A stretch of DNA of 64,000 nt, taken from the NCBI RefSeq assembly GCF_027532945.1, contig NZ_JAPZTZ010000013.1, positions 1 to 64,000 of the forward strand, written 5' to 3'. The position numbers and the translations under genes were made by a program. Positions 38,306 through 42,527 of the stretch are shown here, one piece after another. The notes beneath the pieces are model-generated. The model saw only the letters and a program-made list of their open reading frames with translations, was not told where the DNA came from and did not search any database. Position 1 is the first letter of the stretch. Each line of letters starts with the position of its first letter. The DNA is from Phreatobacter sp. GTDB taxonomy: Bacteria > Pseudomonadota > Alphaproteobacteria > Rhizobiales > Phreatobacteraceae.

Positions 38306-39172
38306 TCAGGCAGCGAGACCGAGCACCCGCATGGCGTTCTGCTTCATGATCAGGTCATGCACTTCGGGCTTGAAGCCGACCTCGGTGAACTGGGCGAGCC
38401 AGCGCTCCGGCGGGATCAGCGGAAAATCCGAACCGAACAGCATCTTGGTGCGCAACTGGCTGTTCGCATATTGGACAATTTGAGGCGGGAAGTATTTTGG
38501 CATCCAACCCGACAGGTCGATGTAGACGTTGGGCTTGTGGAGCGCCATCGACAGCGCCTCGTCGGTCCAGGGCCAGGACGGATGGGCGAGGATGATCGTC
38601 ATGTCCGGGAAATCGACGGCGACGTCATCGACATGGATCGGCTGCGAATATTTGAGCCGCATGCCGCCGCCGCCGCGCATGCCCGTCCCGATGCCGGAAT
38701 GGCCGGTGTGGAAGATGGCCGGCATCTTGTAGTGGGCGATGACCTCGTAGAGCTGATAGGCCATGCGGTCGTTGGGATAGAAGCCCTGGCAGGTCGGGTG
38801 GAACTTGAAGCCCTTGACGATGCCGCCCTTGATGAGCTCCTCAGCCTCGCGCGCGCCAAGACGGCCCTTGTGCGGGTCGATGGAGGCAAAGGCGATCATC
38901 ATGTCGGCATTGTCGCGCGCCGCCTCGGCGATCTCGTCATTGGAGATGCGGCGGTTGCCGATCTGCGCCTCGGTATCGACCGTGAACATGACCAGGCCGA
39001 TCTTGTGCTTGCGATAGTGCGCGATGGTCTCGGCGATGGTCGGCCGCTTGCCGACCTTGAAATATTTGCCCGCCGCCTCCTCGAAGGGCGCCCAGTAGGG
39101 ATCGGGCTCCTGGCGGCAGGAGACCTCTGCATGGGTATGGATGTCGATGGCGACGAGGTCCTCGACCTTCAT
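38306..39172 (-). CDS. Amidohydrolase-family metal enzyme (ACMSD/resorcylate decarboxylase-like)
   Basis: A 288-residue TIM-barrel hydrolase. Metal-site residues are recognisable: H-x-H in AIDIHTHAE, His in GFKFHPTCQG, FHTGHSGIG, ILAHPSWPW, and the final Asp in LFGSDFPLI. This is the amidohydrolase_2 group, whose members decarboxylate or hydrate aromatic and ring-cleavage acids. Its start overlaps the end of the acyl-CoA ligase gene by four bases, so the two are co-expressed; by context it could act on a phenolic product downstream of the ligase/crotonase step. Function inferred only from context. Confidence 0.85.
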   Translation of the reverse strand: MKVEDLVAIDIHTHAEVSCRQEPDPYWAPFEEAAGKYFKVGKRPTIAETIAHYRKHKIGLVMFTVDTEAQIGNRRISNDEIAEAARDNADMMIAFASIDPHKGRLGAREAEELIKGGIVKGFKFHPTCQGFYPNDRMAYQLYEVIAHYKMPAIFHTGHSGIGTGMRGGGGMRLKYSQPIHVDDVAVDFPDMTIILAHPSWPWTDEALSMALHKPNVYIDLSGWMPKYFPPQIVQYANSQLRTKMLFGSDFPLIPPERWLAQFTEVGFKPEVHDLIMKQNAMRVLGLAA

Positions 39173-41055
39173 GGGGTCTCTCCTGCACGGCTGTCGGGTC
39201 GGATGATGGCCTCGCCCGGCGGCTCGGCATAGAGGGCAGCGACCAGGTCTTTGCGGCGGGTGAGCACCGCCCGCTGGTTGATGGAGCCCTTGTCGGTGAG
39301 CTCGCCGGCTTCCAGCGAGGGCGGCACGGTGAGGATGAGGGCGCGGGCGACGCGGTTCGAGGAGCCGGTGGCGGCTGCCGCCAGCACGCCGAGGCGGCGT
39401 GCGAGCTCGGCGCGCAGGCCCTCATGGGCGTAGAGCCCGGGATCATTCGACTTGAGGCCGGCGAAGCGGGCGCAGGCCTCGGCATCTGGGACCAGCAGCA
39501 TGCCGATATCGTCGCGGTCATGGCCGGTCACGACCGTGTCGCGGATCAGCGGATCGAGCGCTGAATTGACGACGTGGCGGAGCGGGCCGACGCTGACCCA
39601 GGTGCCGGTGGCAAGCTTGAAGTCCTCCGACAGGCGCCCGTCGAAGAGGAAGCCCTTGGACAGGTCGTCGGGGTCCGCATAGGCGACGGCATCGCCGAAG
39701 CAGTAATAGCCCTCGTCGTCGAAGACCTTGGCGGTGAGGTCCGGGCGGCGCCAGTAGCCGGGCGTCACCGTCTCGGCCTTCACCCGCGCCTCGAGCTTGG
39801 TGCCGGCGGGGACGAGCTTCAGCGTCACGCCCACCATCGGCAGGCCGATGGCGCCGGCCTGGCCGGTGGCGCGCAGGTTCATGATGGCGGACGGCGCGGT
39901 CTCGGTGGCGCCGAGGCCGGTGACGAAGGGGATATCGCGGCCGGCGACCTCGCGGGCAAGCTTCAGGTAGCCGTCCCAGACCGGCTGGGCGAGGCCGGCC
40001 CCCGCATAGAACAGCATTTCCAGGCGGCTGAAGAAGTGGCGGGCGAAGGCGCGGTCGGCCTCGAGATGCGGCAGCAGCGCCTCGTAGCCCTTGGGCACGT
40101 TGAAATAGGCGGTGGGCGCGACCTCGCGGAGGTTGCGAACGGTCGGCAGGATACCGGCCGCGACCGGCTTGCCCTCGTCGATGTGGAGCGTGCCGCCATG
40201 GGTCAGCGCCATGCCGAAATTGTGGTTGGAGCCGAAGGTGTGGTTCCAGGGCAGCCAGTCCACGAAGACCGGCGGGGTTTCGGCCAAAAACGGAAAGCAC
40301 TGCAGCAGCATGACCTGGTTGGCCATGAGCATGCGCTGGGTGTTGACGACCGCCTTGGGTTCGCCGGTGGAGCCGGAGGTCAGCAGGAACTTGGCGATCG
40401 TGTCCGGCCCGATGGCGGCCAAGGCGGCATCGACGCGGGGATCGTCGACCGGGCCTTCGAGGCTCGACAGGTCCCGCACGCCGGCCATGTCGGCATTGGT
40501 GGCGGCGACGATGAGCCGGTCCGGCGCGGCGGCCGCGGCCAGCGCGGCGCGGAAGGGTTTGGCATCGGCGACGAAGACGAGGCCGGGGGTCAGGAGCTCG
40601 AGGCAGTAGGAGAGCTTGGAGAAGTCCTTCGCCACCAGGCTGTAGGGCGGCGATATCGGGCAATAGGGCACGCCGATCGTCATGGCGGCGAGCGCCATGA
40701 GGGCATGGTCGATGCCGTTGCCGGAGAGGATCGCCACGGGCCGCTCGGCGGAAAGGCCGAGGCCGATAAGGCCGGACGCAATGCGGCGCACCCGCGTGAG
40801 GCAGTCGGCAAAGGTCAGCGTCCGCCAGGCGCCGTCGGGACCGCGCTCGGCCAGGAAGATGCGATCGGGGGTAGCGGCGGCCCAGTGCACGAGCCGGTCG
40901 GGCAGTGCGCGCGGATAGGGGTCGAGCCCCTGGCGGACGGTGACCAGCCGCGTGCCGTCGGCCCGGTCCTCGACGACGGGGTCGAGACGGCCGAGGCGAT
41001 GCCAGGCATCCGGGGCGGCGGCGGGCGGAGCGTCGAACGAGGCGGCGAGGGCCAT
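39169..41055 (-). CDS. fcs: Feruloyl-CoA synthase-like acyl-CoA ligase
   Basis: A 628-residue AMP-forming ligase. The phosphate loop is LLTSGSTGEPKAVVNTQRML, the motif after it is VDWLPWNHTFGSNHNFGMAL (typical of the long feruloyl-CoA synthase branch), the adenine-site motif is GLGATETAPSAI, and the hinge aspartate is in FLFDGRLSEDFKLATGTWVS. The ligase adds CoA to ferulate or p-coumarate, giving the substrate for the crotonase encoded just upstream. ATG at 41055 with GGGAGG. Stop overlaps the next gene's start (ATGA). CouB or another hydroxycinnamate specificity is equally possible. Confidence 0.85.
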   Translation of the reverse strand: MALAASFDAPPAAAPDAWHRLGRLDPVVEDRADGTRLVTVRQGLDPYPRALPDRLVHWAAATPDRIFLAERGPDGAWRTLTFADCLTRVRRIASGLIGLGLSAERPVAILSGNGIDHALMALAAMTIGVPYCPISPPYSLVAKDFSKLSYCLELLTPGLVFVADAKPFRAALAAAAAPDRLIVAATNADMAGVRDLSSLEGPVDDPRVDAALAAIGPDTIAKFLLTSGSTGEPKAVVNTQRMLMANQVMLLQCFPFLAETPPVFVDWLPWNHTFGSNHNFGMALTHGGTLHIDEGKPVAAGILPTVRNLREVAPTAYFNVPKGYEALLPHLEADRAFARHFFSRLEMLFYAGAGLAQPVWDGYLKLAREVAGRDIPFVTGLGATETAPSAIMNLRATGQAGAIGLPMVGVTLKLVPAGTKLEARVKAETVTPGYWRRPDLTAKVFDDEGYYCFGDAVAYADPDDLSKGFLFDGRLSEDFKLATGTWVSVGPLRHVVNSALDPLIRDTVVTGHDRDDIGMLLVPDAEACARFAGLKSNDPGLYAHEGLRAELARRLGVLAAAATGSSNRVARALILTVPPSLEAGELTDKGSINQRAVLTRRKDLVAALYAEPPGEAIIRPDSRAGETP

Positions 41056-41140: not shown

Positions 41141-41932
41141 TCAGTCGGGACGGGCAACCTTCGCGGCGCGCTTCGACAGGAAGTCGCGCACCCGCGCCTT
41201 GGCCTCCGGCATGTTCTGCGCGGTGGAGGCCATCAGCGCCTCGGTGAGGTAGCCGATCGAGGGATCGGCCTCGGCGATGCGCGGCAGGGCGTGGATGACC
41301 GCGAAATTGGTCATGTCGGCATTGCCGGCGGCCTTGGCGGCGAGCTGCTTCGCGAGCGCGAGGCCGGTGCCGTCGTCGACGAGGTACTGGCAGGCGCCCG
41401 CCCCCCTCGCCTCTTCGGCGGAGAGCGAGCGACCGGTGAGCATCATGTCCTGGACCAGCGGCACGCCGATGAGGCGCGGAATGCGCACCGAGCCACCGCC
41501 GCCGAGGAAGATGCCGCGCTGGCCCTCGGGCAGTGCGAAGAAGGCCGAGCGCTCGGCGATGCGGATATGGCTCGCCGCGGCGAGCTCGAAGCCACCGCCG
41601 ACCACCGCGCCGTGGAGCACGGAGAAGACCGGCACGCGGCCGAACTCGATCTCCTGGAAGGCGCGGTGCCAGCCGAGCGAATGGGCGATGCCGCCGGCGA
41701 GATCCGGTTCGCCGCCGACCTCCGACAGGTCGAGGCCGGCGCAGAAATGCTCGCCCTCGCCATGGATGACGACGGCGCGGACCGAAGTCGGAAAAGAGGC
41801 GAACAGATCGCGGAGCCCAGCGACCATGGTCTCGGACAGCGCATTGCGCTTCGCCGGCCGCGACAGGCGGATGATGGCGACCGCGCCTTCGATCGACAGC
41901 GACAGTCCCGATGCAGGGTTCGGTTCGGCCAG
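41141..41932 (-). CDS. Crotonase-family enoyl-CoA hydratase/lyase, probable CTG start
   Basis: The 263-residue crotonase has the oxyanion-hole segments HFCAGLDLSEVGGE and HGAVVGGGFELAAASHIRIA and the active-site helix LPEGQRGIFLGGGGSVRIPR. The first ATG in frame (41827) would cut off the first strand, whose sequence is clearly coding: LSIEGAVAIIRLSRPAKRNALSETM (parts LSIEGAVAIIRL and SRPAKRNALSETM). Upstream of that strand no ATG, GTG or TTG is in frame before a stop; a CTG at 41932 lies five bases after GGGAGGG. Context implies hydration and retro-aldol cleavage of feruloyl- or coumaroyl-CoA. First gene of the operon with fcs and the amidohydrolase, under the divergent MarR regulator. Confidence 0.85.
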   Translation of the reverse strand: MAEPNPASGLSLSIEGAVAIIRLSRPAKRNALSETMVAGLRDLFASFPTSVRAVVIHGEGEHFCAGLDLSEVGGEPDLAGGIAHSLGWHRAFQEIEFGRVPVFSVLHGAVVGGGFELAAASHIRIAERSAFFALPEGQRGIFLGGGGSVRIPRLIGVPLVQDMMLTGRSLSAEEARGAGACQYLVDDGTGLALAKQLAAKAAGNADMTNFAVIHALPRIAEADPSIGYLTEALMASTAQNMPEAKARVRDFLSKRAAKVARPD

Positions 41933-41970
41933 GGCGCCCTCCCTCGGGCTGGTCTCGCCTTCGCGGCGAT

Positions 41971-41989
41971 TAGTTATCTCTCATAACTA
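41971..41989. promoter_or_regulatory. MarR-type operator between the crotonase and MarR genes
   Basis: Perfect 7-bp arms TAGTTAT and ATAACTA surround CTCTC, in the A/T-richer part of the divergent region, 39 bases upstream of the proposed crotonase start codon. The size (19 bp) and place suit a MarR dimer repressing both directions. Confidence 0.8.
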
Positions 41990-42089
41990 TTTTCTAGATC
42001 GCCTGCCCTTGTCAATGGCCCCTGGAAGCGGACAGGAATGGACAGGGCGCTGCCGCGGTTCGGCTGCCCCACCATTTGCGAGGAGCGGC

Positions 42090-42527
42090 ATGGCTCTGGA
42101 TCTCGGACCCCTCGACGGCCATGTCGGCTACCTGCTGCGGCGCGCCCAGCTGGCAGTCTTCGCCGATATCATGACGGGTTTTGCCGCCCATGGCATCTCC
42201 CCTGCCGATTATGCGGTGCTCACCGTGATCGGCGGCAATTCCGGCGCAGGCCAGAGCCAGGTGGCCGAGAGCCTCGGCATCCAGAAGACGAATTTTGTGC
42301 CGCAGATCCGCCGGATGGAGGAGCGCGGCCTCGTCGCCCGCACGCCCTCGCCCACGGACCGACGCTCGATGAGCCTGACGCTGACGGCGGAGGGCGAGAC
42401 GCTGCTCGCCGAGCTGCACCGCACCGCGCAGGCCCATGTCGACCGGATGCGGGGCCATCTCGGGCCCGAGGCCTATGCGGCGCTGCGCGAGCCGCTGATG
42501 CGGCTCGCGGCCATTGGGCCTGGCTGA
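42090..42527 (+). CDS. MarR-family regulator of the hydroxycinnamate operon (CouR/FerR-like by context)
   Basis: The 145-residue regulator has the MarR winged helix: ADYAVLTVIGGNSGAGQSQV, AESLGIQKTNFVPQIRRMEE and the wing with RTPSPTDRRSMSLTLTAEGE. Known MarR proteins divergent from such ligase/crotonase genes (CouR, FerR types) release DNA on binding the hydroxycinnamoyl-CoA, so the inducer would be the product of the adjacent ligase. ATG at 42090 has GAGGAG upstream. It ends seven bases before the convergent BMP protein gene. Confidence 0.87.
   Translation: MALDLGPLDGHVGYLLRRAQLAVFADIMTGFAAHGISPADYAVLTVIGGNSGAGQSQVAESLGIQKTNFVPQIRRMEERGLVARTPSPTDRRSMSLTLTAEGETLLAELHRTAQAHVDRMRGHLGPEAYAALREPLMRLAAIGPG

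Follow-up and report, generated by a model that had tools for sequence, protein, structure and literature searches.

In the 64,000-nt stretch of Phreatobacter DNA analysed here (the window), translation of a crotonase gene on the minus strand very probably starts at CTG 41932, giving a 263-residue enzyme, and comparison with congeneric sequences indicates that this CTG is one state of an NTG start with a variable first base in this section of the genus. The crotonase frame is bounded upstream by the TGA at 41983-41981 and runs to a stop at 41141. The segment from this TGA to ATG 41827 translates as *EITNRREGETSPREGALAEPNPASGLSLSIEGAVAIIRLSRPAKRNALSETM; the frame was read through between the two codons, and no ATG, GTG or TTG was found in it, as the preliminary description of this DNA had claimed. 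CTG 41932-41930 is in frame with the crotonase, and ATG 41827 is located after its first two β-strands. The mechanical table-11 ORF starts at this ATG and is 228 aa long, so that a mechanical ATG/GTG/TTG caller does truncate the protein, as had been expected of automatic annotation. The features of the frame are:

41141..41932, minus strand: crotonase / enoyl-CoA hydratase coding sequence, very probably from CTG 41932, 263 aa plus stop (NF006013, PF00378, predicted fold)
41930..41932, minus strand: probable CTG start codon (no canonical start in frame; congener alignment)
41981..41983, minus strand: in-frame TGA, upstream bound of the frame (frame reading)
41825..41827, minus strand: ATG, first canonical in-frame start, the rival giving 228 aa (table-11 ORF; duplex of -1.8 kcal/mol)

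Twelve genomes of the genus were compared, and seven of them carry the close form of the crotonase (G000, G006, G001, G008, G004, G010 and G002). The sister species G006, with 97% protein identity, has the same AGGGAGGGCGCCCTG, CTG and ribosome site as G000, and no ATG, GTG or TTG is present in frame upstream in G006 either. The aligned start codon is CTG in G000 and G006, TTG in G001 and G008, and GTG in G004, G010 and G002, i.e., one column with the first base C, C, T, T, G, G, G is followed by an invariant TG (MAFFT, seven genomes). This NTG column is always 24 codons before RPAKRN in the seven genomes, and a separate DNA alignment placed it at the same point. A variable first base followed by an invariant TG is the behaviour of a start codon, because the initiator tRNA reads all of these forms, and the orthologues probably use recognised starts (TTG, TTG, GTG, GTG, GTG) at the position of the CTG. 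In a protein tree the five TTG/GTG species form a group separate from the two CTG species. Furthermore, in 80 of 80 named relatives a canonical start is found 26-43 codons from the end of KRN, and CTG 41932 is at 30. The start of the five TTG/GTG congeners (L003-L007) at the aligned column is itself not certain, because a second in-frame NTG is located five codons upstream (GTG, ATG, CTG, GTG and GTG, respectively). The pairing at this upstream NTG is weak (0.3 to -2.6 kcal/mol, versus -6.5 to -7.6 kcal/mol at the aligned start), and it is absent in both CTG species. In G008 the upstream NTG is an ATG, and translation may begin there. The crotonase of the other five congeners is more distant (about 57-61% identity), and its frame contains an upstream ATG. 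The genus has two forms of the pair of crotonase and CoA synthetase (about 60% identical), one with a non-ATG start and the other with the upstream in-frame ATG.

The interval between the crotonase gene and the divergent regulator gene carries a promoter and a candidate operator:

41986..42015, minus strand: sigma-70-type promoter, TTGACA (42015-42010), 18 nt, AATAGT (41991-41986); 0.0 expected by chance
41971..41989, strand not applicable: perfect inverted repeat TAGTTAT-N5-ATAACTA between marR and the crotonase gene, overlapping the -10 region

The TTGACA is invariant in the seven closest congeners, and TAGTTAT-N5-ATAAC is kept in all seven of them. From the conserved promoter, transcription would start near 41979; with the mRNA 5′ end set there, the start codon is expected between this point and the first strand. 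The divergent MarR regulator probably uses the inverted repeat as its operator. A four-codon ORF (MRDN plus stop, 41984-41970, minus strand) overlaps it; in G006 the counterpart reads MTDN, and the other congeners lack it.

In this interval the CTG is preceded by a ribosome site:

41938..41945, minus strand: Shine-Dalgarno (SD) sequence GAGGGAGG (GGAGG core 41942-41938), core 5 nt before the CTG, -12.4 kcal/mol

The preliminary description had placed GGGAGGG five bases before the CTG. The motif is present, at 41943-41937, but its spacing is four bases, and five applies only to the GGAGG core. The duplex of GAGGGAGG (41945-41938) with the anti-SD was calculated as -12.4 kcal/mol with a canonical anti-SD, which was assumed because no 16S 3′ end of this genome was found in the sequence searched. 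It is stronger than the duplex at the best start of any of the 43 window genes and the strongest of the window starts tested, and among the 2,155 CTGs of the window an upstream duplex as strong as this was found at 2. Translation could also start at another in-frame non-canonical codon, since CTG 41905, CTG 41899, ATC 41893 and ATA 41977 are near-cognate and either precede the first strand or coincide with it. This we consider quite improbable: the pairing is only 0.1 kcal/mol for CTG 41905, -4.0 for CTG 41899, -4.0 for ATC 41893 and 0.2 for ATA 41977 (the values for CTG 41866 and ATG 41827 are -2.9 and -1.8 kcal/mol), CTG 41905 aligns to CTC in G001, most congeners have GTC, GTT or CTC in the place of CTG 41899, and ATA 41977 sits in the putative operator, about at the expected transcription start. 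The strength of the ribosome sites, the alignment and the structure led to the rejection of these four codons and of ATG 41827 as starts. Around the crotonase start the mRNA is predicted to be no stabler than shuffled sequences (z = -0.01), which gives no indication of control by structure.

With CTG 41932 as the start, the mRNA would begin a few bases downstream of the bounding TGA, and a leader of about 47 nt would present GAGGGAGG to the 3′ end of the 16S rRNA. The strong pairing, with its 5-nt spacing, would set the CUG in the P site, and the initiator tRNA would then read the CUG by a first-position mismatch and insert fMet, so that a 263-residue enoyl-CoA hydratase would be made. The weakness of the CTG codon is probably compensated by the strength of the ribosome site. 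Non-AUG starts have been linked with a stronger SD (Belinky et al. 2017, PMC5622118), and the combination of the weaker start codon with the stronger site is in line with the compensation proposed there, although a comparison of two lineages is too small to establish it.

The protein itself bears on ATG 41827, which is the first canonical in-frame start and would give a 228-residue protein. Against NF006013 (PRK08150; cut-off 232) the product from CTG 41932 scored 347.3 bits and that from ATG 41827 313.4 bits, so that the short form still passes; against PF00378 (cut-off 27) the scores were 119.4 and 93.7 bits. The CTG start therefore gains 34 bits on NF006013 and 26 on PF00378, and the ATG start moves the beginning of the profile match about 25-30 positions further on. 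Among solved structures, 3HIN, an enoyl-CoA hydratase of Rhodopseudomonas palustris, is the nearest relative, and the match to it begins at query residue 9. A fold model built from 24 sequences had a mean pLDDT of 86.7 (the single-sequence model was poor, with a pLDDT of 43) and superimposed on 3HIN with a TM score of 0.91; the top structural matches were 3hin, DmdD and crotonases. Strands are predicted at residues 10-15 and 18-23, and these blocks reach a mean pLDDT of 93-96. The first strand, LSIEGAVAIIRLSRPAKRN, is located upstream of ATG 41827, as had been noticed from the letters of the window. ATG 41827 is residue 36, and a start there loses both N-terminal strands and also the invariant R25-P26-K28-R29-N30-A31. 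Furthermore, E116, E136 and G113 are invariant in both alignments; by the positions in rat enoyl-CoA hydratase, we take E116 and E136 to be the two catalytic Glu and G113 to be the oxyanion-hole glycine. A start at ATG 41827 is thus very unlikely: in addition to the loss of these N-terminal elements, its SD is weak (-1.8 kcal/mol), third-position bias reaches 35 codons upstream of it, and every relative examined has a start upstream of this region.

The pattern of substitutions was analyzed for the point at which coding begins. In the seven genomes, the variable columns at codon positions one, two and three are 14/14/12 in the upstream region from -45 to -1, with no phase, 5/4/8 in codons 2-9, and 9/6/19 in codons 10-35. 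Between G000 and G006, the 48 bases before the CTG have 2 substitutions, 0 of them at third positions, and from the CTG to ATG 41827 third positions account for 6 of the 7 substitutions (p = 0.007). In these alignments, third-position variation, the mark of coding, begins at or near the NTG and not upstream. The lack of a canonical start in the crotonase frame might also point to a decaying gene whose start codon has been lost, or to an incorrect sequence, for instance one in which an error removed an upstream start. Either case is highly improbable, and both were rejected by G006 and by the substitution pattern. None of the congeners has a disrupted frame, and after ATG 41827 the differences between G000 and G006 comprise 37 synonymous changes and 7 changes of amino acid, which means that the crotonase is under purifying selection. 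A sequencing error is unlikely because the independently assembled G006 agrees in this region, with CTG and ribosome site present and a canonical start absent. Ribosomes might also enter the frame from the short ORF at 41984 (MRDN, stop), whose ATG overlaps the in-frame TGA, through a frameshift or re-initiation. The probability of this is negligible, since this ATG is in the putative operator, upstream of the expected transcription start and in another frame, and is absent at that position in five other congeners, with no conservation beyond G006. The proposal that the crotonase starts at CTG 41932 is, hence, supported by the CTG of the sister species, the aligned TTG and GTG codons, the coding signature, the ribosome site and the N-terminal strands.

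The crotonase gene is flanked by two genes that suggest its context:

39169..41055, minus strand: acyl-CoA synthetase coding sequence (feruloyl/coumaroyl-CoA synthetase-like), downstream, ATG start (PF00501)
42090..42527, plus strand: divergent MarR-family regulator (PF12802/PF01047)

The synthetase scored 716.9 bits against PRK12582, below the cut-off of 777, and its best congener matches adjoin a crotonase. The best NCBIfam match of the regulator is Saro0803TransReg, with 65.6 bits against a cut-off of 200, which does not place it in a curated hydroxycinnamoyl-CoA regulator family. The longest mechanical ORF of the regulator (41277-42527, plus strand, 416 aa) runs antisense over the crotonase gene; its true start is probably ATG 42090, which has its own predicted ribosome site of -7.9 kcal/mol. 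The hydratase, the CoA ligase and the MarR regulator are adjacent, with the putative operator between them, in a cou-type arrangement. In R. palustris, couA and couB and the MarR repressor CouR (PMC10458429) likewise bring together an enoyl-CoA hydratase, a CoA ligase and a MarR-type repressor, but the regulator and the ligase described here are below the equivalog or subfamily cut-offs. That hydroxycinnamoyl-CoA compounds are the substrate and the inducer is, for this reason, only a likely guess by analogy.

CUG starts are already known but rare, and the case described here is a well-supported further example in which the enzyme and the operon are ordinary. Its value lies mainly in correcting the annotated crotonase protein, since gene callers restricted to ATG, GTG and TTG overlook CTG starts and so shorten the proteins. 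It also provides strong comparative evidence for a start without proteomics, in that the start codon differs between species in its first base but not in its position. In addition, a natural series of CTG, TTG and GTG at one site, with varied ribosome-site strength, is suited to tests of whether the SD offsets a weak start. A further reading, in which selection, and not just tolerance, would hold the enzyme to non-ATG starts (CTG, TTG, GTG) in these species, with matched ribosome sites that set its level against that of the CoA synthetase encoded next, is possible but rather doubtful.

Among the solved crotonases, the R. palustris 3HIN and the NF006013 family resemble the enzyme described here in fold (TM 0.91), in identity (54% in the structural alignment) and in a score above the cut-off, and differ from it in having canonical starts among the relatives examined. 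DmdD (4IZB) has the same fold, with about 41% identity. The gene neighbourhood of the dmd pathway differs from the acyl-CoA synthetase/MarR set found here. The rarity of CTG starts in bacteria, pointed out when the window was first described, is confirmed by the switches to CUG counted by Belinky et al. 2017 (PMC5622118), which were 2 from 61,358 AUG starts, 1 from 5,080 GUG starts and 1 from 2,468 UUG starts, i.e., 4 in about 69,000 reconstructed starts; such starts are rare but known. Those switches likewise relate GUG or UUG to CUG while position and SD are retained, whereas the CTG described here is kept in two species and is accompanied by an unusually strong SD. For a CUG that follows a good SD in the leader upstream of dnaA, a toeprint and ribosome binding were obtained in vitro, but this codon did not serve as a start in vivo (PMC8443254). 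That leader, however, had a canonical AUG downstream, whereas in the crotonase gene the use of the sole canonical start would destroy the fold.
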